Assembly: GCF_041381155.1 (NCBI RefSeq)
Contig: NC_091135.1
Location: 59,370,567-59,434,566, forward strand
Direction of reading: 5' to 3'
Origin: Argopecten irradians
Lineage: Eukaryota > Mollusca > Bivalvia > Pectinida > Pectinidae
DNA: 64,000 nt
Notes under the pieces: model-generated
Told to the model about the DNA's origin: nothing
Databases searched by the model: none
The model's input: the letters and a program-made list of their open reading frames with translations, nothing else
Shown here: in pieces, positions 13,113 through 50,300 of the stretch
How the letters are laid out: every line of letters begins with the position of its first letter
Position numbering within the stretch: the stretch's first letter is position 1
Translations under genes and position numbers: made by a program

Positions 13113-13417
13113 TCACATTTTAGAGTCTATCTGTTGAGTGCGCACCACACCCTCCTGGGCGAGTGACACTGCTAATGTTCCATCCTGTCTCCAGAGTCGC
13201 CCGAGAGACAAAGCCTTGCCTGCTCCACATTGGGGGCTCTCCACCTCGAACAGCATCCACTCGTTAGCTTTAAATGGGTTGTGGAACCACATACTGTGAT
13301 CAAGGGAAGCCATATAGGTAGGTGTGTAGCTATTGGAACCAGGTTGTATAGCAGCACCAAGAAGGGCCAGATCCGAGATAAATCCAGCAACACACTGATG
13401 AAGCTTTAGGTCATTTC
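13113..13417 (-). CDS. ACOT8: ACOT8 exon 5 with stop and PTS1
   Basis: Acceptor TTTTGTAG. It encodes residues 206-305, including DHSMWFH, EVESP and AQEGVVR, and ends in SKM then TGA (13113-13115). Only 8 bp of intron separate it from the end of a helentron-like element. Confidence 0.92.
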
Positions 13418-16400
13418 CTACAAAAAACAAGAGGCCCATGGGCCTTAACGGTCACCTGAGTTCGGATACAGAATAAAACAAAAGACATATTAACACTATA
13501 TATTGGCCCATGAGGCCCTTGAAGTCAGTGATTTTATAAATATGACTTTTTAATCTATGCAGATTATTTGGTTCCATCAAACCAGTGAATTCAGAAGAAA
13601 GATTTTTGAAATTTTAGCCATTTTGACCCTTTTTGGCCCTGCCCCTCTGGCCCCTTGGGGTCAGCCAGAACCAATATTGATAAGATGTTAACATGCTATC
13701 ACAGGCTAATAATTCTACCCCAGTTTGACTCATTTTCTATGAAAACTATGCAAATAATGTTCATAAATGTGTTTTTCCTATATAAACTACAGTAAATTTG
13801 ACCCCCTCCTCATGGAGAAACTAGATACCCCAGAGCCATATATTCACAATTTTTGTAAAGGACCTTAAGACCTTTCCATCTGTGAAAAGTATTAGATTCC
13901 ACCATTTCCAAAATTTCAGAAGAAGATTTTTTAAGTTTTAGCCTATTTGACCCCTTTTGACTCCGCCCCTAAGGCCCCTGGGGGTCAGTCATGGAAAATT
14001 TGTTAATAGGATTCAATGACCATCTCATACTGATAATTCTGACAACATTTGACTCATTTCCTATTACAATTGCCGAAATAATGCTCAAAAATGTGTTTTC
14101 CCTGTATAAACTATAGTAAACTTAACCCCCTCCCCAGGGGGAAATGAGAGAACCCAGGGTCATACAATTCACAATTTTGCTAAAGGACCATAAGACCTTT
14201 CTATCTGTAAAGAGTATTTGATTCTACCACATCTGTGAGTGGAGAAGATTTTTGAAATTTTAGTCAATTTTACCCCTTTTGGCCCCTCCCACAGCCCCCC
14301 TTGGGGATGGGGACCATATAATTCACAATTTCGATTAGCCTTATGCCTTAGAAGGTTTGTGCAAAATTTCATTGAAATTGCTTCAGCAGTTTTTGAGAAG
14401 AAGTCGAAAATGTAAATTGTTTACGGACATACGACGCACGATGGATAACGACGGACAATTGTCACATATTCATAGATATCCATGCTAAGTTTGGTTTGCG
14501 GTAAGCGATGGAAATCTTTGGATAGAAATAAAACAGCAACACCTGGCTATTTGCATATTTATGCCCCTTTAGATAAATGAGGAGGGGGCATAGTGTTTCC
14601 CTTGTGACCATCAAATCCTGTCTGGATTTCATATGGAGAATATCATACAGACATCTTTTATATTTTATATGTTTAGTCTCTGTTAATATGTATTTGATAA
14701 ATCTGTTATTTAAAATAGATCAGAACAATTACTAGTATTCTTCAAGGTCACTACTAATGTCCATCAATATCGTGAAGTTATTACACAAAACATTATAAAA
14801 GATTTAATTTCACATCTTCACTTATAGAGCTTGGACCAGAACAAGTCTCTCATCCATTTACTGTAGCTTAGATAAAGAAAAACAATAAACGATTTCCTCT
14901 ACAACTCAAACCCAACTCTGGAACTCAGTCCATTTCATCTAACCTTGAAACACAACTACAGATGAACCCAGACATCAAACTCGCCCATTTCACCTATAAA
15001 TCTGACTTGGACATCAAACTCACCCATTTCACCTGTATCTCTGACTTGGACATCAAACTCGCCCATTTCACCTGTATCTCTGACTTGGACACAAACTCAC
15101 CCATTTCACCTATAAATCTGACTTGGACATCAAACTCACCCATTTCACCTGTATCTCTGACTTGGACATCAAACTCACCCATTTCACCTATAGATCTGAC
15201 TTGGACATCAAACTCACCCATTTCACCTATAGATCTGACTTGGACATCAAACTCACCCATTTCACCTATAGATCTGACTTGGACATCAAACTCACCCATT
15301 TCACCTATAGATCTGACTTGGACATCAAACTCACCCATTTCACCTATAGATCTGACTTGGACATCAAACTCACCCATTTCACCTATAGATCTGACTTGGA
15401 CATCAAACTCACCCATTTCACCTATAGATCTGACTTGGACACAAACTCACCCATTTCACCTATAGATCTGACTTGGACATCAAACTCACCCATTTCACCT
15501 ATAGATCTGACTTGGACATCAAACTCACCCATCTCACCAATAGATCTGACTTGGACATCAAACTCACCCATTTCACCTATAGATCTGACTTGGACATCAA
15601 ACTCACCCATTTCACCTATAGATCTGACTTGGACATCAAACTCACCCATTTCACCTATAGATCTGACATGGACATCAAACTAACCCATTTCACCTGTAGA
15701 TCTGACTTGGACATCAAACTCACCTATAGATCTGACTTGGACATCAAACTCACCCATTTCACCTATAGCTCGAACCCAGACAAAGCGTTTTGGCTCGCCT
15801 TTTTCCTTATGGTGATACACTTCTGGGTTTACAGGACGTTTCTCCACATGGATCTTGTCTTCCAGGATTTTGAGAATCAGAGTCCTACGGTTATCATTCA
15901 TGTCCTCACTAAAATAAGAAATATCTATACACTTTAATGTTATCTTAATGACAGATATCTAGGGAAAATAATTAAAAGTGTTTCGACATGGAACAAGTAG
16001 CCCTCCACCTCTTTGCACCAAATTTTAATCCTGTGTGGGATAATTACCATAACTGGAGATGTCCAGTTTGCTGAAACTTCTCAAACTAGAGATTATGCAT
16101 ACCAGCAATTCTACTTAATCAACACAATTAGTATAATACAAAAAGTACATTGGTTGTTGCTTGAAATTTCTGAAATCTCTAATATGGGAAAATTGACAGG
16201 AATTTGTGGAAGATCATTGTTTGTTTTTTAATTTCAGAATATTTTGTTGTAAGATGGTAATACAAAAAAAATTCAATACATTCATTGGTGGTTTTTCTCT
16301 GGGTACTCCTGAATCTAGCACAAGTTAAAAGGGACATAAACTTAGATAAAACATGTAAGTTTGAGTAAAATACATATTTAAGACGTGTCAGATACCTTAC

Positions 16401-19400
16401 TTAGTAATATATATCAGTTATTGTGCATATGTGTCAAATAAAATAATTATAATGGAAATTCCATCTTTTGTATTTTGAACCGGCCCGGTCGAATTTTGTA
16501 ACGATAGTATAGTAGTGTTGAACTTTAGTGACCTCCCACAATGCACTGCACAAATTAAATGAATGAAAACAAAATGGTGGGTCAAAAACGTGGGTGAAGC
16601 GAACACAAACGAATTCCGATAGAAAACAGTGTACGTCAAGAGTCAGTAACGTGCGCGATTGGGAAAGTAGGTAAATATAAATGGATCGCTGAAATGCAAG
16701 AGATGGGAGCAACTCCCCACTTAAACCTGTGTTATTTACATATGTGGAATAAGTCAGGAACCTCCCTTCGCGGTGCCCCGTCGAATGAAAAGTCTCGTTT
16801 GACTTTTGACTTATCATTCATAACAAATATGGCTTAAACTTAATTTGTCAACGGTCGTAAATTAGAAAATAATCTTTAAATGTGGAAAACTAATATTCCT
16901 TGTCATGTCAGCAAGTTTTTTGTTCATTATAACCTCGCTTTCGGCATGCTTTCGTTTTGTGTTCCAAAAATAGAATATGACGGTCTATTTTTGAGGTAGG
17001 TATTCCCCACATTTTCCTGTTGTTTTAGAAAACCAATCATTGTAATGAAATATTCAATGAACATCTGAAAACCTAATCTAAGCATACAGAACAAATTATT
17101 TAAGGTTCATGTCCCTTTAAATGTCAAACAAACAAAAGTAAGCAAAAAAAAATTAAAATGAACTAAAATATATATTAAATATGTTGTATTATATAAACCA
17201 TTTTGATTTGTGGTTAACATGTATGTTGATGCTTACTTGAGCTGTGATCTGAGAAAGTCATCCGAGTCTTTGAGTTCTTCAGGCCCTGGGACAGACGGCA
17301 TTGTGAACTGATGCTGAAATGCATCTTCTTCGTCTGTTTTGTAAGAAGCCTGCATAGTGAAGATTGCAACTCCCTCCTGGGTTGCCTTGATGTTACGTGA
17401 TGAATATGTTCGGCCATCTCTTGTACGGTCCACATGGTACAGAATTGGTCGATTAGGGTTACCTGCTCACCATAAAGGGGAAAACGAAATGATCAATGGT
17501 GCTGAATAAGCAGGCTGCACGTAAACTAGACATCTCTTTGAGAGAAGGTTAATGGTACTTTATTAATTTAATGATATACTGCTGGTCACTGCATAAGGTA
17601 CCAATGTATGTGTAAGCTAAGTTCATGGCATTCATTATTTTTCACATTTAAAATGATTTTTGTTTCTTCTGGGTATATAGTCATACAGCAGTATATGAAA
17701 CATAAATATTGTAAGATTACTTGTATTGCTTATAAGGAAGTATCAGTATAAAAAGTGGAAACATGTCTAAACATTGCTTACCTCCCCTCGGGAGGTAACA
17801 CTGCTGACAGTGTAAACATGCTTACCTCCCCTTAGGAGGTAACACTACTGACAGCGTAAAAATTGCTTACCTCCCCTTAGGAGGTAACATTGCTGACAGT
17901 ATAAACATGCTTACCTCCCCTTCGGAGGTAACACTACTGACAGTGTAAACATTGCTTTCCTCCCCTGGGGATGTAACACTACTGACAGTGTAAATATTGC
18001 TTACCTCTCCTTAGGAGGTAACACTGCTGACAGTGTCAACATTGCTTACCTCCCCTTAGGATATAACACTGCTGACAGTGTAAGCATTGATTACCTCCCC
18101 TTAGGAGGTAACACTACTGACAGTGTAAAAATTGCTTACCTGCCCTTAGGAGGTAACACTGCTGACAGTATAAACATGCTTACCTCCCCTTAGGATATAA
18201 CACTACTGACAGTGTAAACATTGATTACCTCCCCTTAGGAGGTAACACTACTGACAGTGTAAAAATTGCTTACCTGCCCTTAGGAGGTAACACTGCTGAC
18301 AGTATAAACATGCTTACCTCCCCTTAGGAGGTAACACTGCTGACATTGTGAACACACTCACCTCCCCTCTGGAGTGATAGAGACTGTACACAGAGTAATA
18401 GAGACTGTACACTGAGTGATAAAGACTACACTTACCTGCCCGTAGGAAATAGCAGTGAAGACTGTGGGCATGGTGGTCTTCATTCACGGTTTTAGATGCA
18501 GCCACGAGGGCTTGACCTACGACCTGTCCACCGAACACAGACCTTCCTGCTGTAGGCTTCCATAGGTTCACAGGAGAAGCTCTGTAAAAGATTTCAATCT
18601 AAATAATAACATAAACATTTTACAGCTGTAGGTTTCTACACGCTAGATGGGGTAAACCGAGATACTCTGGCCCTGACACCAGACTTAGACATTATGATAG
18701 ATAGATATCTGGTTTAGGGCCAGAGCGCACTGCTATATCAAAACGTGAAATAAGCTGACACTGTTTGGTATCTGGCCAGGTCATCTCCGATTCAGACTTC
18801 TTACAAAATATTACCACCGAGAATCGCCACTTACCTTGGTCTTTTCAATAAATAATTTATCTACTCATAGCCATTCATTTTATCATGCATGCACATTCCA
18901 TTGTGTCAACACAGTAGTTTCTTCACCGCAACTTTAGATTTCCCTCATCATCGTCGCCGTTTTCTCGTAGTATGCAAATCACCTTGTATCTCGATGGATT
19001 TCTATATTTGGGTAGATATAATATTCATTTGTTGATAGCCTAAGGTTAGTGGTGCTTCTCTGTGGTCAGGCTGAATCGGAAATGACCTGACCCGATATCA
19101 AACGGTGTCCGCTTATTCCACGTTTTTATATAGTAGTGCGCTCTTGCCCTAAACCAGACATCTATCTGTCATTATTTTCTAAGTCTGGTGTCAGGGCCAG
19201 AGTATCTCAGGCTATAGAGGGGGAAGGATCAGTTGAGAAATTCTGATAGCAAATTCAGAGTCTGACAGCAAAGCTGTAGAAGTTCTGGAGATATCATCAA
19301 CAACCATACAATTCAATAGGTTGAGTAGCTACTGTTGTAGTGGAAAAGATATATCACCTTCTGACTGAGGTCAGCTATAGGTTGAGCAGCAGCTGGCTAG

Positions 19401-20185
19401 TGTTTTAAAATCCCAAGTTTTAACTCTGGTCTGGTTATGCATTTTTACTCCACTTATGTACTAACCTTAACATCAGCTCTTTATCTTAATTGGTTCAGCA
19501 GTAATTAAGCCAGAGGATCTGGTTCAATCCTTACCTAGTAGCAGCAGTTATTTCAATTTATCTTGTGCCCATGCTGTTTTACTTTCATTTGGTGATACAT
19601 ATTATTTCAATAGAGTTGAATACAAGCTGTTACAGTTGCACGTGATAGACCCGATTCCAATTCCTTTTTTTGGGGACATAGATGTGGCGCGGATATGTTT
19701 GGCTAGGCGATTGGGTGCCGTGGATCGTGCATTTGAGGTTGGTATTTCCGCTGCTCTTAATACATTGTATTGATAACACAATGAGTAGGTCTTAGGTATT
19801 GAACTCATACATTGACAAATATTGATAGGCGAGTTTAATACCTATGATTAAGGTTATTATATATATATACACGTGTCCATGTACAGTTGAATATATATAA
19901 AAAAAATAATAAAACTCAACGACCTTCCTCTAGTGCTTTCGACATTTCATGATGGCTCTTCAGGAATGAAAATGTTTATTTTTTAAAGAACAAATCAGGT
20001 ATTTTTAAATGATTGTTTATCATACATTGTTAATACACTAGTTAGCTGTACAGTTGAGTGTATAAGCTAACTGCACTACGTTTAAACTATAACACTTACC
20101 GGAATATATTAACATCTATTTTCTCCAGAGTCAGAAAGGAGCGTATGAGTTCACTAGCTAGGTTTTCCCCCTGTTCTACTGCCAT
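13113..20185 (-). CDS. ACOT8: Acyl-CoA thioesterase 8-like, peroxisomal (five exons)
   Basis: Hydrolyses acyl-CoA to free acid and CoA in peroxisomes, by family. The exons, in gene order, are 20100-20185, 18436-18581, 17237-17462, 15754-15908 and 13113-13417. All junctions are GT-AG, the phases agree, and the total is 918 nt, or 305 residues (human ACOT8 is 319). Two hot-dog halves are visible: [13 protein letters not shown] (44-56) and HSLHCYF in the first, WVRA and the family signature DHSMWFH (244-250) in the second, then WRQDG and AQEGV. Asp244 and Gln292 match the conserved acid and amide of TesB-type thioesterases. The protein ends Ser-Lys-Met, a PTS1-type peroxisome signal. The ATG at 20185 was chosen because exon 1 reads directly into the family alignment. 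Introns carry a foldback, two satellites and a transposon next to the last acceptor. Confidence 0.9.
13426..14466 (-). mobile_element. Helentron-like family B in ACOT8 intron 4
   Basis: In - orientation it ends CAGGTGACCGTTAAGGCCCA, hairpin GGCCCATGGGCC, CTCTTGTT at 13426-13433. The other end has ACAATTGTCCGTCGTTATCC, like the CGTCCGTCG start of other B copies. Between them are about three internal repeats of 300-odd bp containing TTTTGACCCC-like blocks. It points the same way as ACOT8 and abuts the acceptor of exon 5. Confidence 0.65.
14467..14961. other. Intron 4 sequence without clear features
   Basis: Part of ACOT8 intron 4. A segment near 14575-14640 (GGAGGGGGCATAGTGTTTCC) looks like another dispersed repeat fragment. 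No exon is visible. Confidence 0.4.
14962..15770. repeat. 39-bp satellite carrying the ACOT8 splice donor
   Basis: About 20 copies of a 39-bp unit. On the ACOT8 strand each unit holds CTATAGGTGAAATGG|GTGAGTTTGATG, the same bases as the exon 4 end and donor. Units are highly alike; a few lack one or more bases or have CTCT for GATCT. The period is 13 codons, so both strands stay open for hundreds of bases. The array starts at the exon 4 boundary and runs into intron 4. Confidence 0.95.
15754..15908 (-). CDS. ACOT8: ACOT8 exon 4, ending inside the first unit of a satellite
   Basis: Acceptor TTATTTTAG; donor GAAATGG|GTGAGT. It encodes the linker and [16 protein letters not shown] then [11 protein letters not shown]. 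With this donor the spacing from WVRA to the next exon equals that in bacterial TesB (15 residues from W to H). The last 15 or so exon bases and the donor are the first copy of the 39-bp array that fills the start of intron 4. Confidence 0.88.
15909..17236. other. ACOT8 intron 3
   Basis: No tandem repeat or exon recognised. A TTCTCTGGGTACTCCTGAATC segment near 16292 resembles the SINE-like repeat at 4.85 kb. Confidence 0.45.
17237..17462 (-). CDS. ACOT8: ACOT8 exon 3
   Basis: Acceptor GTGAGCAG, donor CTCAA|GTAAGC. It encodes [16 protein letters not shown], then QHQFTMP and PEEL, all matching the first hot-dog domain and linker of ACOT8. Confidence 0.92.
17763..18360. repeat. 45-bp palindromic satellite in ACOT8 intron 2
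   Basis: About 13 copies of a 45-bp unit built on TTACCTCCCCTTAGGAGGTAA, an imperfect palindrome, plus CACTGCTGACAGTG. On the ACOT8 strand each unit reads GGGGAG|GTAAGC, which resembles a splice donor. It starts about 75 bp from the true exon 2 donor. Confidence 0.9.
18436..18581 (-). CDS. ACOT8: ACOT8 exon 2
   Basis: Acceptor TTTTACAG, donor GCAG|GTAAGTG. It encodes the most conserved N-terminal block ([16 protein letters not shown] and [11 protein letters not shown]). It enters at codon position 3 and leaves after position 1, which fits exons 1 and 3. Confidence 0.92.
18659..19208. mobile_element. Foldback (MITE-like) element in ACOT8 intron 1
   Basis: A 550-bp element whose arms of about 150-190 bp are inverted copies: it opens GAGATACTCTGGCCCTGACA and closes TGTCAGGGCCAGAGTATCTC. 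Each arm has an inner palindrome (CTCTGGCCCT with AGGGCCAGAG). No clear target duplication was found. Confidence 0.8.
19209..20099. other. Rest of ACOT8 intron 1
   Basis: AT-rich, with a TATATATA run near 19859 and no exon recognised. Confidence 0.4.
20100..20185 (-). CDS. ACOT8: ACOT8 exon 1
   Basis: Encodes residues 1-28 and two bases of Arg29, starting [13 protein letters not shown]. The donor is CCG|GTAAGTG. The motif NIFR just before the donor matches the LFRG region of vertebrate ACOT8. Confidence 0.85.
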
Positions 20186-24346: not shown

Positions 24347-25348
24347 TTAACGAGGAAGAGGTAAACAAAAGAGGTTCATAGCGTTGATACGTTTGCTCTT
24401 ATCAGTTTCAATATAGCGTTTATAGCAATCACTAGACCATAAACCTAGAAGTTGGATATCGTCATCTGCGACACCACACGAACTAGCCCAAGTAGCAGCC
24501 CCCCGCCTCAGAGAGTGACCCCCATAGGAAGCGGCGTAGTACCCTAGTTGAGAGAGAACCAAGCGGAAGGCCTTAAGGAAACCAGAGTAGGATAAGCACT
24601 TCCCAGAGGACAAGAGGAACAGAGGTTGGGTCAAATCTGGTCGTACTAAAAGCTGCTGAAGTGGGGCACAGAGGCAAAGGGGGTGACCTTGCTGTAAACG
24701 GGGAAGAACAATTTCAATAGGAACAGCTCTAAATTGCATGGTCTTTACAACTTTTAAAGACAATAACATACCCCATGGGTGAGACAACAAATCCAGACAC
24801 TGAACATGACGGGATGGGTCAAATACACCTTTAACTAAGAAATTATTAGGTCTCAAAAAACCAAAGAAACCAACAAGGCAGGCTGCCCAAAAAACACAGT
24901 TGTCTTTACAAGTAAAATCTAAAATATCGTGAATCTCTAACAACAAACGGGGAGTTACTGGGGACTTACAGGATTGTGCTGTGCTAATTTCTCTCTTAAC
25001 ACCCGTTAAGACATGTTTTACATGCCAGGTTTTAGTAGGATCAGGTAGATTTTCAGACTTGTGCAAGACTGATATAATATTTAAGTAAGATTTTATACTG
25101 CTAAATTTGAATTTTTTCACATCAACCAAATAGGCGACATACATTTCTACAGTCTCTATATCTGCCGGAACACTTGCTAACTTATGGGCCTTACAAAAAC
25201 TCAAAAAAGTCTGTAAATGAGTTTTATAAGTCTCTGATGTGGAACTAGCCCACCCCTTCTTTTTCAGTCTTTTCACATCGTGTTTGAGTCTCTCTGTCTG
25301 GGGATCCGCGTAATCCCCACCTATAACATAGAAAAGAAGGGGAAACAT
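24347..25348 (-). mobile_element. Tyrosine recombinase part of the DIRS/Ngaro-type fossil
   Basis: A frame of about 333 residues with a SAM-like N-terminal core-binding half (TYKTHLQTFLSF) and a catalytic half with the HSLRRG box and a late tyrosine (KRYIE). By family it would integrate circular cDNA without target duplication. Confidence 0.8.
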
Positions 25349-26700
25349 GCTTTAACAGCTCATCGGCAGTAAAGTCAATAAGGTTATAACTAGTCACAAC
25401 ACTATACAAGCGAGAAAGCTGACCTTGCTCATGAAGGCGAGAAGCACTATCTGCGATAGTATTAAATCGTCCATTTATGAATTTTGCTTTGATTTTGAAA
25501 TTATAATATGCAGATATCCAAAATAACAATCTTAAACAAAACATAAGTACACTATTCTTAGAGGACCCTTTGTTGATAATGCTCATGGTGGTCATATTGT
25601 CCGTTGACACAATAACAGTTTTATTACACCACCAAGGGGCCCAACGTAAAGCTGATAATACGACAGCCATTGTTTCTTTAATATTAATATGTTCGGAGGA
25701 CATCACTGGCAGGTCTAATTCCCAATTGACATAAAAGTAATCACCATTAAAGTACCCTGCGCATCCTTTATCACACGCGTGTGTCTGTAGGCCTGTTACA
25801 GGTGTTGACTCTATAAAGCGGACACAGCCATTAAAAGTTGACATAAACGTTATCCACCAGTTTAAGTCGGAGAAAAACTCATGATTAAGTTTAACTTTTG
25901 CATTAGAACTTTTATATTCACTTGGAATCAAATTCAGCATACGTCTGAGAAAGGTGCGGCCTCCCTTTATCACTGAACATGCCCAACTGAGCTTTCCACA
26001 TAAAGATTCTAGTTGTTTGACACTTGCACGCTTTTTTCCAACAAACGTATATAGTAAGTTTTGAAATTCGGTCATTTTTTCCTGCGGTAAACTCAATGTT
26101 AGTTCCGTCATGTTGATTAAGACTCCAAGGAAGATAAGCTGCTGACTAGGACCCTCGACTTTGTTCCACGATATATTGAAGCCCAATTTTCTCAGAGTTG
26201 AGATGAGTAATCGAAGACCTCTACTGCATTGTTCAAAAGTGTTTTCGATAATCAGAAAATCGTCTAAATATGCGATAACTGTCACATTAAAATGGACTTT
26301 CATGATATGACACACAGACGAACTCAGCTTTTGAAAGATTTTAGGGCTTTTGGCATGCCCAAAAGGTAATTTTGTGTCATACATATATGATGGTGATGTT
26401 TCTCCCTTAAACGTCCACTTTAAGCCTGTGAGAGTATAATCTGAAGGATGAATTTTTACTGAGCGGTAGGCACTTTTTAAATCCACTTTTGCTAAGAAAT
26501 CACCTGGTTTAATGATAGAAATAGCACTTTTTAAATCCATATAAGAACAATCTGTATCCGAGGTATAAGAATTTAAGCATGCATGTATAGGCCGACTAGC
26601 ATCATGAATTAAACGAACATCCCCGTTAGCTTTAGGGACAGCTCCAAGCGAACTAATTATTGTCGGTTTTGTATCTGTTATTACGTATTTTTTTTAGCGA
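25245..26700 (-). mobile_element. Reverse transcriptase and RNase H part of the DIRS/Ngaro-type fossil
   Basis: RT motifs include KVDLKSAYRSV, LPFGHAKSP and the catalytic YLDDF box, followed by FLGVLI. The RNase H region shows STDN. The 3' end of this region overlaps the recombinase frame by about 100 bp. Confidence 0.8.
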
Positions 26701-26903
26701 TAACTCTGTGAGTATCTGATCTTCAACTTTTTCATTATATAAAGCAGCTGAGGCATAATTGTCTCTTACGACTTCTTGGTATGGACCAAATTTTGAAGCA
26801 AGCTTAAATCCATCACGTATAACAACTTAAAATTCCTCCCTATCCTCACAGTCATTGGGGAGAAGTTCTTCCCACGCCCCATGTTTTAAACAGTTTGTAC
26901 AGT

Positions 26904-27971
26904 CTACTGCTGAGCTGGCCCGTTTTTTGGAGTCCCTATGACAGTGGGGTAAGATTTGGAAGTGTCTTGGGAGTGGTTAACGGCCGAATGAACACTTGAA
27001 AGGCAAATGGCACAATTATGTGCCATCCTACATGTCGGTCGCGTACACATGTTACTGTTGAAGCTACGACAGATTTCTTTCCCGTTAGGCAGGAAGGGAC
27101 TCTTCATACGTCGATCCGGTGCACTGTTGTGATATGGGGTTTGAATGCCAGCCTCTTGAAATGCCCTAGACGTGGCATTAGAGGATTTATGAACTAGGTT
27201 GAATTCCCGTAGATCTTGTCTGTATGTCCCCAACTCAAAATGCTCCCTGGCTTGTTGTTCTCGATATTCCTTATCATAAAGGAGCACGGAAAACCAGACA
27301 TACTTGGACGCGAGCCGGAAAATGTCAGCTGTTTACTTTAAGTATGGCGCAGAATTTGGGAGATTGCCTGATTTTGTTAGGGCATTCATGATTTGGATGT
27401 TCGCGAACCCCCATTGTTCTAGTGTCACTTTTTCCAAAGTACGAGTTTTATCTATTCTCACCTCCATATTTTTGCCTAGATTCACAGTGTCATATTGGGG
27501 AATAGGGTCCTGCCAGATATGGTCTACGATTTTTAAACATTTTCGCTGTTCGTTGTTATTGTGCAAATTGTTCAATATCAACTCACCGACACTGGCAACG
27601 GCTCCACTCTCGTGACCTTGACCGTGATCCCTAGAATTGTCTGGTGTCACGTAATCTTTTGCGAGTTCGGTTCGTATTTTTTCCTTTTCTTCATTAATTT
27701 TTCTTCGTATCATAATTTTTTCTCTGTCAATTTTTATCCTTTTCAGTTCGCTTTGCAGTTGTTGTAGCTCTTCGTCGTCATGATCGTCCACGTGGTCGCC
27801 ATCACTCCCCGGCATGGGCCCATGTTCTGGCATCGTCAAAGATTCGTGGAAAACGTCTTCCGTATCACTTTCGCGGGATTCTTCTTCGTTTTGAAGGGCG
27901 TCGATAAACCCTTTTAGTCTTGCTCCCGCTCCTGTTCGTTTGGGGCGAGCCCCGACGTTACCTTCAGCCAT
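26904..27971 (-). mobile_element. Gag-like part of the DIRS/Ngaro-type fossil
   Basis: It starts with a basic and acidic N-terminal segment (ARPKRTGAGARLKG then an E/D-rich run), has a charged coiled-coil-like middle, and ends with Cys/His pairs (CRSF, CTRPTCRMAHNCAIC) typical of the gag-like protein of this family. Confidence 0.6.
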
Positions 27972-28840
27972 ATTTCAGCAAAAATCATCAGCAAAAAATA
28001 ATCAGCCTTTAGCGTGGCTGTTGAAGCACATGTCAATTGAAAACGAGGCGCGGTAAAACATTGCGGAAGTACATCAATTTTACAAGCACTAAAAATACAG
28101 AATGCGGGAAAATAGCGAAACGACAATACTAAAATTATATTTACATGGAAATAACACTACAAAGCGGTTATCATATGTGATATTTACCCGCGTGTGGGCT
28201 CCCGCATCATTGGTGCAATCCTGAGAAGAATTGTTTTAATCCAAACAACAAGTTAACATAGCTGGTCTGATAAGTATAAATTTCAACATCAATTTCATTA
28301 CGAATTCTGCTTTTTTGTAACCTCGTTGACCTGTCTCGCCGATCTCACTGTTTACCCGAGCCGAGCCCGAGCTAAGGGTAGACAACTCTCCGTTCCCGAG
28401 CTTTTTCTAGTAAATGTAGAACATTTAGCCATTCTTCAAGTAAGAATGTTTCCGGGCTCTGCGACGGTGACGCAGTTCTACAAAGAGTCAATATATTAAA
28501 GTTAAAGTGTTTTCTATTCAGCTTCATCTATGGAAATTTAATAATCAAAGTACTGAAAGTACTGAAACACAATGGCTATCTGATCAAGTTGGTTCTAATA
28601 GCAATACCATTACCATTGTTATGAAAGGAGTAAATTGGCCGATAACAATTTTTTCATGAATGTATGTACTTTTCCGAGACTGGCACAAAATTATTGCATT
28701 CTAGATAGAGACAATTTTTATACATATGCTAATAGTTATTGAGAAAGAGAGAAAAAGCATTTAAGTAGGTATAACAAGTTGAAAATAAGAAATAAATGGA
28801 TAGTTTCTATAAAAAGACAAAGTCCAATAACAATTATTTT
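27972..28840. other. Gene-less stretch beside the retroelement
   Basis: Likely includes the 5' flank or terminal repeat of the retroelement. A segment near 28355-28410 (CGAGCCCGAGCTAAGG) echoes the repeat at 20637. No exon recognised. Confidence 0.35.
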
Positions 28841-37675: not shown

Positions 37676-40300
37676 ATTCAATTCAATTCTTTATTTTCCT
37701 TAAGTTTACAGCTTATTGGAATTGTGCAAAATACGCACATATACATATATGTACAATCACATAGTAATTAGTACAATATCATAGACAAGTTACAAATGTA
37801 CTATACATTGAAATCAAAATGTGTATTATATAAAGGCTACATAACTTACAGGTTAAGTATACAACATTAAAATAACTGTACTGAAATTATTGGAGGCGGG
37901 ATCGTATTTCCATGGCCTCAAATATAAATTTTGCTAATTTACGTATATCACTTATATTTTCGCAACATAATAATTGTATCAACTTGTACATAGATGGTTT
38001 ACGCCAATAAAAAGGTTTTACATATTTCTTTCTTAAATCATGATAATTAATACATATTAAAATAAAATGATATTCGTCTTCCACATCTAAATTGCAACCA
38101 GGGCACAATCTTTGTTCTCTAGCAGTATCGGTATATCTGCCTGTTTCGATGGCCAAATTATGAGCAGATAGACGAAATTTAGATAAGACAATTCGGTATT
38201 TCGGAGGTATATATTTGGTCAAATAGTATTGTATAGTAAAATGATTCACAATATGCTTATATAATATACATTTTGATGAGGAATCCAATAAGCCTCTCAA
38301 ATGTTGCTGACTTTGGTCAAATAGTCGTTGCTTTATCAAACATAATATATGTTTATGGTTATACAGATAGTGATGATTCCATACATTACCAAAACCAATA
38401 GAAAAAAGACAATGTTTAACATGGTTTATCCAATTGAAACAATTACCAGTGTTGCTATTACTTAAATATAAAAGAGCGGAATTCAAAATACAGTTATTTG
38501 AGACCATTAATTTAAGCCAATACTTTATCATTCTGTACTTCCTTAAACATTCTAATGGATACCGGCCTAATTCAAAATATACCATGGCGTTACACGTTGA
38601 TCTCTTAACTTTTAGGATCTTCTTACAAAATGACAAGTGATTTTTTTCTATATCACACCCTTTCGATGATCCCCACACCTCGCAAGCATAATGCAAGATG
38701 CTAGAAACATACGTGTCAAATAAACGTAACAAGGTTTCAAAATTTAAATATAAATTAGAACACATAGAAAAAAGTGCAAACATGGCTTTACGACCTTGGT
38801 CAGATAAATGTTTTTGAATTTGATTAAATTTATTATTATACTTCAGCTTTACACCAAGATAGCAAAAATCGTTTACTATTTCAACTTCATTGCCATTATA
38901 TCTCCACGATTCCTTTTCAAGTATACGTCCTCCATTTCTAAATACGACTATTTTCGTTTTATCAGTATTAACAGACAATTTCCACTTAGTTGAGTAACTA
39001 TAAAGACTATCTAAGAGGCACTGCAGCCCTTCAACAGTTTCAGAGAACATTACCAGGTCATCCGCGTACATTAGGAGAAATAGACTCAATTCGCCGAAAT
39101 CATAGCCAGAATTTCCATTTTCAATAAATGAAGTTTCAAAATCATTAACAAAAAGTGAAAATAGAATCGGTGATAATATTTCACCTTGCATTAATCCAAT
39201 ATTGTTCTCAAAATAATTAGAACATTTACCATTTACCAAAACACAAGATTTAACCGATTTATATAGTGACTTAATAACAGATAACATTTTCCCTCTAATG
39301 CCTAATTTAGTCAGCTTACGCCATAAGCTTAATCTATCAACAAAGTCAAACGCTTTCCGAAAATCTACAAAACAACAATATAGGCGTTTCTTTGATGACA
39401 AAGTTTTAGATATAATTGAGTGCAAAGCAAAAATTGCGTCTATAGTACTAACTTCTGGTCGAAAACCAAATTGCGCATCAGTTAAAATGTCATATTTGAT
39501 ACATACATCTAAAATACGTTTATTTAATACAGAAGTGAAAAGTTTACAAAGACAACTAATTAAACTAATACCCCTAAAGTTATTAGGGTCATTACGATCC
39601 CCCTTTTTATATACAGGTATGATCATAGCGGATGACCAATTAGTAGGAAAACAACCACTGTTAAGGATGTTATTGAATAATATTGAGAGAGTTGGAATAA
39701 GTAATTCCTCACAATATTTAAAACATTCATTTAAAATGCCATCAGGTCCATGTGACTTACCACATTTTATTTTATGTATAGCATCAGCAATTTCCCGGGA
39801 TGAAATACGGGCATCTAACTCCTCGAATATAACATCATTATCAACTAGAGTTATGTCATTATGTGGAACTTGATTAGTAGCTTGATTGGCAGAAGACAAA
39901 TTTTTATAATGGTTATACAATTGATTAGAACTAAGTAATGGTGAAACAGTCTTTTTATGTCCAAATTTCTTGTAAAAAGACCTTGGGTTATGTTTCCTCA
40001 TATATTCTAACATATCACCTTCGGCACTTAGATATTGCCTTTTATATTTACGCTCCGTAGACTTATACTCTCTTTTCTTACGTATGAGATTGGTGTGTGT
40101 TGAGGAACACTTATTGGAGTTAAACGCTTTCAATGCAGTCAGATATTGCTTACGTAGGGATTTTAAACAGTCATTAAACCAAGGTTTATCGTTGGAACTA
40201 GAAAGAGTACTGGTATGTGGGTTTACAGGGGGTTTGCTAGAATTACTATACTGTGGATTGATTTGAAAAAATGGTTGCATAATACCATTTTCATAACACT
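37676..40300 (-). mobile_element. Non-LTR retrotransposon, 5'-truncated
   Basis: Contains an open reverse transcriptase frame (37887-40280) and a 3' tail of about 200 bp ending in AATAAAGAATTGAATTGAA. The endonuclease domain that should precede the RT is absent, so the copy is truncated at about 40300. No target duplication was identified with confidence. Confidence 0.8.
37887..40280 (-). CDS. LINE reverse transcriptase, 797 residues, open frame
   Basis: The frame begins in the linker that follows the endonuclease in such elements (KPWFNDCLKSLRKQY, residues 32-46). RT motifs follow: GPDGI (178-182), FRGISL (235-240), FGFRP (271-275), CFVDFRKAFDFVD (303-315), GLMQGEILSP (362-371) and the catalytic YADD (405-408). 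The C-terminal part has a CCHC-like zinc finger: C726, C729, H738, C743. No stop breaks the frame, so the copy is young. The clade is not certain; the zinc finger and YADD context suit the CR1/Jockey/I assemblage, and no RNase H is seen. The first Met is simply the first in the surviving frame. As the copy is truncated, it would not move by itself. Confidence 0.85.
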   Translation of the reverse strand: MQPFFQINPQYSNSSKPPVNPHTSTLSSSNDKPWFNDCLKSLRKQYLTALKAFNSNKCSSTHTNLIRKKREYKSTERKYKRQYLSAEGDMLEYMRKHNPRSFYKKFGHKKTVSPLLSSNQLYNHYKNLSSANQATNQVPHNDITLVDNDVIFEELDARISSREIADAIHKIKCGKSHGPDGILNECFKYCEELLIPTLSILFNNILNSGCFPTNWSSAMIIPVYKKGDRNDPNNFRGISLISCLCKLFTSVLNKRILDVCIKYDILTDAQFGFRPEVSTIDAIFALHSIISKTLSSKKRLYCCFVDFRKAFDFVDRLSLWRKLTKLGIRGKMLSVIKSLYKSVKSCVLVNGKCSNYFENNIGLMQGEILSPILFSLFVNDFETSFIENGNSGYDFGELSLFLLMYADDLVMFSETVEGLQCLLDSLYSYSTKWKLSVNTDKTKIVVFRNGGRILEKESWRYNGNEVEIVNDFCYLGVKLKYNNKFNQIQKHLSDQGRKAMFALFSMCSNLYLNFETLLRLFDTYVSSILHYACEVWGSSKGCDIEKNHLSFCKKILKVKRSTCNAMVYFELGRYPLECLRKYRMIKYWLKLMVSNNCILNSALLYLSNSNTGNCFNWINHVKHCLFSIGFGNVWNHHYLYNHKHILCLIKQRLFDQSQQHLRGLLDSSSKCILYKHIVNHFTIQYYLTKYIPPKYRIVLSKFRLSAHNLAIETGRYTDTAREQRLCPGCNLDVEDEYHFILICINYHDLRKKYVKPFYWRKPSMYKLIQLLCCENISDIRKLAKFIFEAMEIRSRLQ

Positions 40301-40570
40301 GAAAATCGCCACTCTATCTTATGTGAGTAGAATAGGTCCCGTTTTCCTCGTGACGTCACAGGTCAGGGGTCCCGAATCGGGGTCAATGGCTTGGGGCTTC
40401 AGTTGTGTTCTAGAGAAAAGTCGCATTATCTCTAATACCGTATTGCTATGAAACTTGTACTTTCTCCATTCTAAATTTTATACAATGACACATTTATCAA
40501 GCCTTATATACCAAACCATTCCGTGTACACTTTAAGAAGGAAGTTATATTTTTTAAATTTAGTATTATTT

Positions 40571-43800: not shown

Positions 43801-44037
43801 TATAAACATGTATATAGTGTCCCCTGTACGCCATCATAGGTACGTGTATTTCATTAGATATATTGATATTTCGTTCCCAAGCAATAATTATTTCGTTCGA
43901 ACGCAATAGTATTTCGTTCCCACGCATTAATATTTCGTTCCCACGCAATAATTTTATTTATTTCATGTCCGCTCCCAGCCACCGTAGCTCCCAGCCACCG
44001 TACTATTTAAATATTTTCTTATTTTTATTTATTTGAG

Positions 44038-46406
44038 ATGCTTCGACCGGCTGCTGCCATGTTGTCCGAAAGGAACAGAAGATTCATGTCACTTGTGAAG
44101 GATGTCAGCTGAAGGAAGTACCTCGGGATTTACCCATCAACACCACAACACTCAACCTGCGGAACAACGACATTGTCGAGTTAAACAATGATTCTTTTGC
44201 GAATTTACTTTATCTCGAATATTTAACGCTCTCAAAGAATGTAATGTATGGAATTTCACCTGGAGCGTTTTATAATCTCGGAAAACTTAGATACTTAGAT
44301 TTAGCGGATAATTCCCTGCGGCACACAGGTTTCGACGATTCTGTTTTTAAAGACCTTTTAGAACTAACACATCTTTATTTGGATAGAAATAACTTTCATT
44401 TAGATGCGAGATATCCCGAAGAAGCAATAGCCCATGTAAAATCACTCCAGTACCTAAGGATAGATATTTTTGACGGTTTTTTATTTGGAAATGGATTTCT
44501 AAGTTTAGTTAATCTAAATCAATTAGATGTTGTTCCATCTGATACAAAAATAGTGCCAATTCGTAACACATCATTCAAAGGACTAAAGAATTCTAAAATA
44601 TCTCAATTATATCTAGACTTCGAAATGAAAACTATAGAGACAGGCTCGTTGTCACCATTTTGCCGTCTTGAGTCGCTAACACTAAATTCACGCAGATCAT
44701 TGCCAATCCAAGACGCTCTGGGTGCTCTTTATGGATTACAAGGGAGAAATATGGAATCTATCAAACTCACGTCAAATCACTTTTTATATTCCGAAGGTGT
44801 TTTTTTGGAGAAATCCCATATTAGATTTCTGGCAACAATATGTACCAAGAATTTAGATTTATCCTTTAGTGGGATTTCGGGAATGTCAATGAAAGCGATA
44901 TTATCTTGGAAAACTAGGCGTTGTCTAGAGGTTTTCAATTTGTCAAGAAATGTCATCAAATCCCCACAATTATTTACGCTTCTTATGCTGTTTCCATCAT
45001 TAATTAGTCTATATGCTTCGCATGAATTTGTCACTCCGATCAGGAGACGACGCAGACTGAAGGAAGAGAAGATATTTTACGTTCCTGAATCTCTAAATAA
45101 CATCTTTATGTCACATAATTATATTTGGGGAAATCTCCTGAATATTACCATCTGGAAGGAAAATGACATCAAGGTAATCGATATCAGTTATCCACGTGGT
45201 GGTGCTGGGTGTTCAGATGGGCATGTGAAAGGTCTTCTCCACTTAGAGGAACTGAATATATCCGGCGTAAAATGCCAAAAACCGAACGATCAACTATTAA
45301 CATATTTCCCTAGCCTATCTCGTCTCGTGGCTAAACAATGTAACCTCGGCGATCGACTCGGACTGAGTAGAAAGTCTTTATTCACGGGACTGTACAACCT
45401 CTCATTTATAGATCTAGCTTTTAACAGGATCTGGTATTTGGATCCAAACACATTCAAAGACCAGTCACATTCACTGACACACCTCAACCTATCCGGAAAC
45501 GACTTAGAACATCTTCCCTTGGAATCTCTCGAACCCCTTCGTGCTTTACAACATTTCGATGTAAGGAATAATCTCATAACTACTTTATCAAGCCATGAAC
45601 GTTCTTTTCTGGACAATTCTAGCGATAAACTTCAAATCAGATTGGCAGGGAACCTTTTTGTTTGTAATTGTGATCATTTGGACCTTATCACCTGGTTCTA
45701 TACGACCAATACTGTACTAGACAAGGAAAATGTCTCGTGTATCACACCAGAAGGGACGGAAACTAACATAAAGAAATTCCTGGAATCCTTTGATGAATTT
45801 TATACCGGCTGTGTTTCTAAATTCTGGTTATTAATCTCGGTCACCCTCACCCTGGCGTGTTTGTCGTTTGGTATTGTCTTTCGAGTAGCCTGGAGTCGCA
45901 GTGTTCGGTTACGAATTCTTTTTCACCTTCCTAAAGACGAAGGTGTATATCTATATGACATATATATAGTGTATGGAGACGGGGACTCTACGTGGGTAGC
46001 TAAAACACTGGTGCCATGGCTTGATGATAAAAATATTAAAAACTGCTTCGATGACAAAAGTTTTAGTTTATTGCGGGACAAAGCGGATAACATAATGGAT
46101 GCGATAGACAATTCTCGTAAAACTGTTTTTGTCGTTAGCTGTAAATTTATGGAGCACGAATGGGAACTGTTTGCGATGAAACTCACAAGCATATATACTT
46201 TTCGTGATGGTCGAGATGATATGAATATCATCATCCTGCTGGATGATATCAAGAGCAGCGAATTTCCAAAGCTTGTCCGGAAAAACTGGGGAGTCATACG
46301 TCCTTTGAAATGGCCTGAAGGGAAAACTACTGCACAAGAAAGCTTATTTTGGAAGAAATTGTTAAAACGCATTAATATAGGAAAAGTTTCACACGCGAAA
46401 ATGTAG
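44038..46406 (+). CDS. Toll-like receptor (LRR-TM-TIR), main exon
   Basis: A membrane receptor for innate immune sensing, by family. The first Met of the open frame is at 44244, but the same frame runs back to a good acceptor (TTTATTTATTTGAG) at 44037 and adds 69 residues forming an LRR N-terminal cap (CC, C, C, then VPRDLP and NTTTLNLRNNDI). The start and signal peptide must be on an upstream exon not found here. Numbered from Met 44244: LRRs about 1-467, one LRR C-terminal cap (C474, C476, C499, C523), transmembrane segment 527-546, TIR 568-710. TIR box 1 is YDIYIVYG (571-578), box 3 FW (702-703). The BB loop is unusual: KSFSLL (605-610) replaces the common RDxxPG. One membrane-proximal cysteine cap makes it the single-cysteine-cluster type. 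The element ending at 43986 sits just upstream. Confidence 0.88.
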
Positions 46407-46841: not shown

Positions 46842-47329
46842 AGTTCACTTGTATTGATGATCCAATATAAAATATCGAAGTAACTGTCTGCAGATGGCGA
46901 TCAAACACAGAAGTCCACAAGTTTGACTGGTTTTACACTTTCCTGCTTTTTCTTTTTAGTAATCGATCTTTGAAAATTCTTAAAATTGAATGTCCGTTGT
47001 TATCATATAGACAAGGAAAATGAATAATAAATCGAACACTTTGATGTATAGATGACACTCTTTGTTCCTTGATAAATAACAGCTATGTTTCATCGGCTGG
47101 GGTGGAAATCTTAATATTTTTACGAGTACAAAACACGAGTGAAAAATATCAAAGTTTCCACCTCACGAGATAGAATCAAGGAATCATGTATAATTATATA
47201 TTTGTCACATTTTACGCCTCTAAGTCTTAGTTTGCTACTGCTATTTCTTAGAAAATGCTGATCTCAAAATATGAGTGAGTGAATTATATTATCTTCCATG
47301 ACGTAAAAAATTACCGTGAATGTAATATC
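46842..47329. other. Gene-less stretch with a small hairpin
   Basis: A hairpin at about 47098-47163 (GGTGGAAATC with GTTTCCACC and AATATTTTT with AAAAATAT). No exon. Confidence 0.45.
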
Positions 47330-50300
47330 TTCTATGTAGTGTAGAAACAATTACTATGAGTGTAATATCTTCCATGTAGTAAACATTTACTGTGATTGTA
47401 AACATTTAATGTGAGTGTAATATCTTCCATTTAAACATTTACCGTGAGTGTAAGATCTTCTATGTAGTAAACATTTACTGTGAGTGTAATATCTTCCATG
47501 TAAACATTTACAGTGAGTGTAAGATCTTCTATATAGTAAACATTTACTGTGATTGTAATATATCTGTGTAGTAAACATTTACTGTGATTGTTATATCTTC
47601 TATGTAGTAAACATTTACTATGAGTGTAATATCTTCTATGTAGTAAACATTTACAGTGTGAGTAATATCTTCTATGTAGTAAACATTTACCGTGAGTGTA
47701 ATATCTTCTATGTAGTAAACATTTACTGTGAGTGTAATATCTTCTATGTAGTAAACATTTACTGTGAGTGTAATATCTTCTATGTAGTAAACATTTAGTA
47801 ATATCTTCTATGTAGTAAACATTTACTGTGAGTGTAATATCTTCTATGTAGTAAACATTTACTGTGAGTGTAATATCTTCCATGTAGTAAACATTTACTG
47901 TGAGTGTAATATCTTCTATGTAGTAAACATTTACTGTGAGTGTAATATCTTCTATGTAGTAAACATTTACTATGAGTGTAATATCTTTTTTTTTGTAAAC
48001 ATTTACTGTGAGTGTAATATCTTCTATGTAGTAAACATTTACTGTGTGTGTAATATCTTCTATGTAGTAAACATTTACAGTGAGTGTAATATCTTCCATG
48101 TGGTAAACATTTACTGTGAGTGTAATATTTTCCATGTAGTAGACATTTACAGTGTGAGTAATATCTTCTATGTAGTAAACATTTACTGTGATTGTTATAT
48201 CTTCCATGTAGTAAACATTTACTGTGATTGTTATATCTTCTATGTAGTAAACATTTACTGTGAGTGTAATATCTTCCATGTAGTAAACATTTACTGTGAT
48301 TGTTATATCTTCCATGTAGTAAACATTTACTGTGAGTGTAAGATCTTCTATGTAGTAAACATTTACTGTGATTGTTATATCTTCTATGTAGTAAACATTT
48401 ACTGTGATTGTTATATCTTCCATGTAGTAAACATTTACTGTGATTGTTATATCTTCCATGTGGTAAACATTTACTGTGAGTGTAATATCTTCCATGTAGT
48501 AGACATTTACAGTGTGAGTAATATCTTCTATGTAGTAAACATTTACTGTGATTGTTATATCTTCTATGAATTAAACATTTACCGTGAGTGTAATATCTTC
48601 CATGTGGTAAACATTTACTATGAGTGTATTATCTTCCATGTAGTAGACATTTACAGTGTGATTAATATCTTCTATGTAGTAAACATTTACTATGAGTGTA
48701 ATATCTTCTATTTAGTAAACATTTACTGTGAGTGTAATATCTTCTATGTCGTAAACATTTACTGTGAGTGTGATATCTTCTATGTAGTAAACATTTACTG
48801 TGAGTGTAATATCTTCTAGGAAGTAAACATTTACTGTGAGTGTAATATCTTCTATGTAGTAAACATTTACTGAGATTGTTATATCTACTATGTAGTAAAC
48901 ATTTACCGTGATTGTTATATCTTCAATGTAGTAAACATTTACTGTGATTGTTATATCTTCTATGTAGTAAACATTTACTATGAGTGTAATATCTTCCATG
49001 TAGTAAACATTTACCGTGAGTGTAATATCTTCTATGTAGTAAACATTTACTATGAGTGTAATATCTTCTATTTAGTAAACATTTACTGTGATTGTTATAT
49101 CTTCTATGTAGTGAACATTTACTGTGAGTGTAAGATCTTCTATGTAGTAAACATTTACTGAGATTGTTATATCTACTATGTAGTAAACATTTACCGTGAT
49201 TGTTATATCTTCAATGTAGTAAACATTTACTGTGAGTGTAATATCTTCAATGTAGTAAACATTTACTGTGATTGTTATATCTTCTATGTAGTAAACATTT
49301 ACTATGAGTGTAATATCTTCTATGTAGTAAACATTTACTGTGAGTGTAATATCTTCTATGTAGTAAACATTTACTGTGAGTGTAATATCTTCTATGTAGT
49401 AAACATTTACTGTGAGTGTAATATCTTCTATGTAGTAAACATTTACTGTGATTGTTATATCTTCAATGTAGTAAACATTTACTGTGAGTGTAATATCTTC
49501 TATGTAGTAAACATTTACTGTGAGTGTAATATCTTCTATGTAGTAAACATTTACTGTGATTGTAATATCTTCTATTTTGTAAACATTTACTGTGAGTGTA
49601 ATATCTTCTATGTAGTAAACATTTACTGTGAGTGTAATATCTTCTATGTAGTAAACATTTACTGTGAGTGTAATATCTTCTATGTAGTAAACATTTACTG
49701 TGATTGTTATATCTTCTATGTAGTAAACATTTACTGTGAGTGTAATATCTTCTATGTAGTAAACATTTACTGTGAGTGTAATATCTTCTATGTAGTAAAC
49801 ATTTACTGTGAGTGTAATATCTTCTATGTAGTAAACATTTACTGTGAGTGTAATATCTTCTATGTAGTAAACATTTACTGTGAGTGTAATATCTTCTATT
49901 TTGTAAACATTTACTGTGAGTGTAATATCTTCTATGTAGTAAACATTTACTGTGAGTGTAATCACAGTAAATGTTTACTACATAGAAGATATAACAATCA
50001 CAGTAAATGTTTACTACATAGAAGATATAACAATCACAGTAAATGTTTACATGGAAGATATTACACTCACAGTAAATGTTTACTACATAGAAGATATTAC
50101 ACTCACCGTAAATGTCTACTACATAGCAGATATTACACTCACGGTAAATGCTTAATTCATAGAAGATATTACACTCACAGTAAATATTTACTACATAGAA
50201 GATATTACACCCACAGTAAATGTTTACTACATAGAAATATAACAATCACAGTAAATGTTTACTACATAGAAGATATTACACTCACAGTCAATGTTTACTA

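Follow-up and report, generated by a model that had tools for sequence, protein, structure and literature searches.

When a splice donor lies inside a tandem array, it may be asked how the donor came to be repeated, and which of the repeated sites the gene uses. The question is raised by an acyl-CoA thioesterase gene in the window, the stretch of 64 kb of scallop DNA that was analysed here as a whole. As had been predicted from the letters of this DNA, the end of exon 4 and its donor are the first unit of a 39-bp array, the exon 39-mer at 15781-15743 being adjoined by 20 further units.

The gene comprises five exons on the minus strand between 20.2 and 13.1 kb (Table 1); GT and AG are present at all introns, and the joined exons, the translation of which was checked, form a single open frame of 305 codons. 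Both acyl-CoA thioesterase domains were identified in the product above the Pfam cut-off (PF13622, PF02551 and PF20789), and bacterial TesB structures were matched with high significance (1c8u, E 5.4e-63), in agreement with the identity proposed originally, ACOT8/TesB thioesterase. That the gene is ACOT8 and not some other TesB-type thioesterase is putative, the name being kept from the original prediction. A search of the whole genome (G000; 846 Mb in 1508 contigs) with the ACOT8 protein, in which the best candidates were considered, found one locus only, in five pieces with 71-99% identity; the 71% piece is exon 2, and it extends beyond the end of this exon. Twenty residues across the join between exon 4, ending in unit 1, and exon 5 align to 1c8u, 4qfw and 4r4u without a gap in the TesB alignments shown. 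These ungapped alignments support the end of exon 4, and the fit across the join shows that the exon side of the array is constrained by the protein.

Table 1. Positions of the ACOT8 exons, the arrays and other features of the window (window coordinates), and junction arrays at other loci of the genome
Feature	Position	Strand	Basis
ACOT8 exon 1, coding part	20100-20185	minus	GT and AG, joined translation
ACOT8 exon 2; end resembles unit of intron-2 array	18436-18581	minus	GT and AG, joined translation
ACOT8 exon 3	17237-17462	minus	GT and AG, joined translation
ACOT8 exon 4, 155 nt, phase-1 end	15754-15908	minus	GT and AG, joined translation, ungapped TesB match
ACOT8 exon 5, up to stop	13113-13417	minus	GT and AG, joined translation
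First unit of 39-bp array, 28 exon + 11 intron bases, with authentic donor (G of GT at 15753)	15743-15781	minus	Unit count from exon
20 further units of 39-bp array, in intron 4	14974-15742	minus	TRF and unit count
Unit 2, 30 bp, nine bases fewer, giving TAG/GTGAGT (G of GT at 15723), in frame; top-scoring donor of the array	15713-15742	minus	
In-frame TAG in unit 3, donor altered to GTTAGT	15680-15682	minus	
Exon-type 10-mer GTCTGGGTTC at far edge of array, in unit register	14964-14973	minus	
45-bp array in intron 2, 13.5 copies	17768-18368	minus	TRF
36-bp satellite, about 8.7 kb; middle (49962-54655) inverted relative to both flanks	47290-56052		TRF consensus units
789-codon open frame, start leucine-rich-repeat-like	44037-46403	plus	By eye
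Long open frames resembling retroelement remains	24350-27974 and 37890-40313	minus	By eye
L067, kinesin acceptor, 61 bp x 22, 35/36 bases	G000:C2:23911759-23911917 +/-1500		
L043, myosin acceptor, 60 bp x 26, 33/36, extends into exon			
L102, kinesin acceptor, 35 bp x 7	G000:C9:39327585-39329444		
L098, kinesin donor, 62 bp x 4.4			
L100, kinesin donor, 33 bp x about 14, to piece end	G000:C6:9835344-9837072	minus	
L094, TCP1-family donor, 53 bp x 4.5, LLVPGGGAAEMALSQ in exon part			
L060, kinesin donor, 63 bp x 9, up to 24/29; exon-only score 26			
L105, kinesin donor, about 35 bp, up to 26/40			Shorter similarity, below 24-mer threshold, recognised on inspection
L027, myosin donor, about five degenerate copies			Shorter similarity, below 24-mer threshold, recognised on inspection

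The array in intron 4 was delimited by Tandem Repeats Finder (TRF) at 14971-15768, with a period of 39, 20.7 copies and 94% matches. The 20 units beyond the exon unit are 39 bp long in 17 cases, 38 bp in two and 30 bp in one, and are followed by a partial unit from 14973. The donor 9-mer TGGGTGAGT (TGG/GTGAGT, the slash marking the boundary) has 17 occurrences, namely the authentic donor and 16 of the 20 further units, while the donors of the four remaining units are TGGGCGAGT in two cases, with GC for GT, TGGGTTAGT in one (GTTAGT) and TAGGTGAGT in the 30-bp unit. The statement that every unit repeats the donor was thus slightly too strong; the alteration of the two units nearest the exon and the stop at 15680-15682 are as described. 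The relation of the unit to the exon was borne out and its extent had been understated, the last few exon bases having been noted where ten codons are spanned: 33 of 39 bases are shared by the unit consensus and the exon unit, and 22 of 28 in the exon part. Exon 4 alone gave a best local alignment score of 31 against the doubled unit; among 2000 single-base shuffles of the exon sequence the highest score was 25. When two units were used as the query against the 846-Mb genome, the sole match was this array, in a search that skips very common words and scores the best candidates only.

The edges of the array are informative with regard to its origin. On both strands of the 64-kb window the exon 10-mer GTCTGGGTTC was found in two places only, one where the exon unit begins and the other at the distal margin of the array (14973-14964). 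Both copies are in unit register, and among the 20 units that lie between them 19 begin with GTCCAAGTCA and one with GTCCATGTCA. This pattern is most simply read as an ancestral exon-type unit that was retained at both edges, with a derived variant that spread through the middle. Because GTCTGGGTTC is confined to the exon unit and the far edge, we infer that the array was most likely derived from the exon.

The repeated donors are not all weaker than the authentic one. With a donor matrix built from 86 other donors called in this genome, the authentic site scores 6.6 (16th percentile) and the unit-2 site, located 30 nt further on, 9.1 (45th percentile); the predicted U1 pairing of the 17 identical donor 9-mers is -10.4 kcal/mol. 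If used, the unit-2 donor at 15723 would add ten residues in frame, and in this respect the original prediction was right in principle, as later donors exist and one that could extend the protein in frame outscores the authentic site. Any donor past unit 2 would run into the TAG at 15680-15682 or, further in, a frameshift from a 38-bp unit; the shift of frame deeper in the array by the two 38-bp units was absent from the earlier description. As 16 decoys carry the nine bases of the authentic donor, these bases by themselves cannot decide which of the sites is chosen. Between equal sites in model substrates the intron-proximal donor can win, and faithful use of the first copy is therefore not guaranteed.

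Intron 2 of the same gene contains a 45-bp array, the units of which end in GGGCAG/GTAAGC or GGGGAG/GTAAGC, in register with the donor of exon 2. The GGGCAG unit matches exon 2 at 21 of 29 exon-side bases, and this is its best place in the masked 64 kb, the next having 19. The intron-2 score was reached by 178 of 2000 exon 2 shuffles with the majority unit and by 8 of 2000 with the GGGCAG variant, and exon 2 was second of 87 in the junction ranking. Judged from this similarity, the intron-2 array probably consists of copies of the exon 2 donor that are older and have diverged. A dispersed element was considered as a source and rejected, as the unit matched only there in a genome search in which common words were skipped.

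The occurrence of similar arrays at other junctions of the genome was surveyed with 90 exons of the myosin, kinesin and TCP1 families that were picked by family search with repeats disregarded. The sample consisted of the best 30 of 82 myosin matches, the best 30 of 130 kinesin matches, 13 added kinesin exons from ten regions hand-picked down the match list, and 17 TCP1 exons in ten regions of 59 matches, with one piece (L089) left out. A total of 171 of the 180 junctions were used (86 donors and 85 acceptors), and nine were dropped for want of a called site or of 150 intron bases. The calling of splice sites relied on consensus and reading frame, so that individual ends may be in error, and at L098 the script placed the donor in the second copy of the array; an intron is shared by some neighbouring loci. 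A myosin exon, L018, encodes 107 residues that are all identical to those of the PDB entries 1dfk, 1dfl and 1b7t in the alignments shown, with equal scores against 1kk7 and 1qvi and lower ones against 2ec6 and 2os8; the 1dfk/1dfl/1b7t/1kk7/1qvi group is from bay scallop (Argopecten irradians) and the 2ec6/2os8 pair from sea scallop (Placopecten), and the exon thus points to a scallop, most likely Argopecten. A search of the genome for a mitochondrial COX1 gave no match.

For each junction, the 24 adjacent exon bases were compared with up to 1.5 kb of their own intron, and the exon ends of other loci were compared with the same intron as a control. A score of at least 28 was reached in the own intron at 11 of 171 junctions, against 0.26 expected (24 of 15,780 mismatched pairs, in a pool that includes ACOT8 pairs), and the own exon took first rank at 16 of 171, against 1.9 expected. 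In an earlier set of 123 junctions, ACOT8 included, the 5% rank was reached by 14 junction 24-mers versus 4, 6 and 2 exon-interior 24-mers at three offsets. Arrays of at least three and up to 26 units were found at nine of the 171 junctions, six donors and three acceptors, so that both 5' and 3' boundaries are affected (clear arrays at the donors L060, L094, L098 and L100 and the acceptors L043, L067 and L102, with the donors L105 and L027 added on shorter similarity). Junction copying extends beyond ACOT8 and is not a lone oddity, and the observation from which this analysis started is in this sense both confirmed and widened.

The individual arrays differ in their detail. In the 61-bp kinesin acceptor array (L067), at least 18 exon bases are repeated upstream of the exon, and 35 of 36 bases are identical in most copies listed. 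The 35-bp kinesin acceptor array (L102) has CAA in five decoy copies listed versus CAG at the real site; these decoys look inactive, through chance, conversion or selection. In the 33-bp kinesin donor array (L100) the frame stays open for about 14 units, as far as the piece extends, with VGTKECHSTLR repeated, and later donors, if used, would extend the protein without a stop. One or two extra junction copies only were found at L039, L021, L056, L038 and L092, some of which could be remains of duplicated exons. Junction matches of low score at L029, L055, L075 and L020 were not counted, as no ungapped in-register copy was present at 60%, nor was the array at L035, which begins about 24 bases past the donor as read by eye and carries no exon bases.

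These frequencies lead to the further question of whether junctions are preferred birthplaces of arrays. A known junction is included in eight of the 44 arrays listed, against 1.28 expected under a uniform draw of units (Poisson P 6e-5), or in seven when L105 is left out (P 4e-4), although the list shows one array twice for three locus pairs and the expectation is crude. Exon-internal arrays are removed by selection, which raises the share of junctions, and a mutational hotspot is thus not proven. Donor-like sites with a score of at least 7.5 are present in the units of 13 of 38 arrays on the sense strand versus 2 of 38 on the antisense strand (one-sided Fisher P 0.0015). When junction arrays were excluded by name the counts became 9 versus 2 of 31 (P 0.021), the L105 array having remained under L076 names, and with the two rows of L105/L076 also removed they are 7 versus 2 of 29 (P 0.072); the sense-strand bias outside the identified junction arrays is suggestive only. 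Acceptor-like sites did not differ clearly between the strands (12 versus 8 of 38, and 8 versus 8 of 31 without junction arrays). It is conceivable that junctions of this scallop are preferred birthplaces of arrays, that a few percent of its exon boundaries carry series of near-identical decoys, and that the spliceosome reliably picks the exon-most copy by position and not by sequence; we put this forward tentatively and lean slightly against it.

Comparable structures are known from chordates. In human CBS, a 31-bp VNTR was reportedly described by Lievers et al. in 2001. By its notation, c.1444_1467+7(16_21), it has 16-21 units of 24 exon and 7 intron bases (PMC2630376), and it resembles the ACOT8 array in its donor-spanning unit and its roughly 20 repeats, ACOT8 having 28 + 11 bases and 20 further units; the CBS repeat is polymorphic in people, whereas the ACOT8 array is known from one assembly. 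In amphioxus, minisatellite-like tandem duplications of exon-intron boundaries, at donors and acceptors, have been named mirages and are reported for Adh3, the globins BflGb6 and BflGb9 and troponin C, with an imperfect case in PGBD5; according to these reports regular splicing is not disturbed (PMC3087553, PMC3902484). The scallop arrays are similar in that boundary-spanning units occur at donors and acceptors, with many copies that carry AG or GT signals, a homogenised interior and differing edges. In ACOT8 itself each unit spans the boundary with its 28 exon bases, the edges are excluded from the concerted evolution inside the array, and the putative authentic boundary, judged from the adjoining units and the TesB alignment, is the outermost unit on the exon side. 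Unlike mirages, the arrays described here are in a non-chordate, reach 26 units and affect about one junction in 20 in a repeat-blind sample, and they are known from the sequence of one assembly.

Dual-specific AG/GT splice sites in tandem repeats have been reported for UBC and VCX3A (PMC10809524), and AG/GT is likewise present in 20 of the 21 ACOT8 units, the exon unit included (15 TAGGTGAAA, four CAGGTGAAA and one TAGGTGAGT; for example TATAG/GTGAAA and TACAG/GTGAAA). The repeats of UBC are coding monomers with used sites, whereas those of ACOT8 are intronic and their AG/GT are putative sites. Human segmental duplications have also been reported to contain internal tandem repeats at exon-intron boundaries (PMC2812944), and the gain of introns through tandem duplication is known as the Rogers model (named in PMC3087553). 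Both share with ACOT8 a tandem duplication over splice signals that alters gene structure, but in ACOT8 an existing intron was enlarged and no new intron is implied. No mollusc account of such junction arrays was found among the best-ranked matches in openly licensed PubMed Central papers. The view that a splice site within a satellite is rarely described holds for single cases, but the phenomenon has been named in amphioxus and is exemplified by human CBS; what is new is the non-chordate genome, the rate obtained from a repeat-blind sample, and a gene that probably carries a second, older case in its intron 2.

The explanation that we favour, and consider highly probable as a whole, is tandem duplication over the junction with the exon-proximal site still in use. 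A segment of 39 bp that spans the donor at the exon 4/intron 4 boundary would have been duplicated in tandem; because the exon-side copy kept working as a splice site, the later copies would be intronic and nearly neutral, free to multiply and to be homogenised by slippage or unequal exchange, with no function needed. The spliceosome would keep to the exon-most donor, aided by exon definition, and 16 identical decoys would leave with the intron. Other donors and acceptors of this genome would have been struck by the same process. The sequence shows the anatomy of the array, the kinship of unit and exon, and the recurrence at further junctions; the mechanism of duplication, its course out of the exon into the array and the use of the exon-most donor are inferred. 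What counts against this explanation is the stronger unit-2 donor, which lies 30 nt away and in frame.

That donor, ahead of the first stop, is a reason to consider that the array serves as an alternative-donor device, in which later donors, chiefly that of unit 2, yield ACOT8 isoforms with an added block of ten residues; the human CBS repeat, as reported, likewise spans a donor (PMC2630376). The insertion site is ungapped in the three TesB alignments shown, however, units beyond unit 3 come after a stop or a frameshift, and the arrays of other genes have units of 53, 62 and about 34 bp, which are not multiples of three, so that coding use is not the common factor; we regard this reading as unlikely. 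Still less probable in our view is a selected splicing or transcription element, in which many intronic U1 sites would slow, enhance or regulate splicing and the stop in unit 3 would be a selected shield against the downstream donors. The 17 identical donors with good predicted U1 pairing would suit such an element, and a link between minisatellites in introns and alternative splicing has been reported for C. elegans (PMC4039745). Yet three of the nine junction arrays are at acceptors, and CAG is replaced in the listed decoys of one of them. The shield, which had been offered originally as chance or selection, was dropped after comparison with other donor arrays: the unit-2 donor precedes the stop, the frame is broken by the 38-bp units, and the kinesin array L100 is open in all units read.

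An assembly error or a dead gene might also produce an odd junction, as tandem arrays are often mis-sized in assemblies, and the copy number of the ACOT8 array may be wrong. Either is very improbable as an explanation of the whole, given the open frame across five exons with GT and AG at every intron, the single changes and indels by which the units vary, and the recurrence of the pattern at other loci. It is hardly credible, finally, that the direction was reversed and a pre-existing satellite or an introner-like mobile element supplied the splice site and the exon end, even though scallop genomes are rich in tandem repeats (21.7% is given for Amusium pleuronectes; PMC10225492). Introner-like elements have related copies at other loci, and neither the intron-4 nor the intron-2 unit of ACOT8 matched elsewhere in the genome in searches that skipped common words; the exon end fits bacterial TesB; and the first rank of the own exon over those of all other loci at 16 of 171 junctions makes the arrays gene-specific.

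Junction duplication with continued use of the exon-proximal site, the preferred reading, has consequences for the study of splice-site choice as well as for scallop genomes. The ACOT8 array is a natural test that would allow the contributions of position, exon definition and transcription order to be measured directly in a gene as it occurs in nature. According to the report on EASTR (PMC10632439), false splices between repeats can arise from spliced aligners, and the junction arrays described here are places prone to such errors in annotation. The recurrence of the arrays suggests that tandem duplication is tolerated at junctions where it would be harmful inside exons, and this could explain part of the growth of introns in repeat-rich bivalves.
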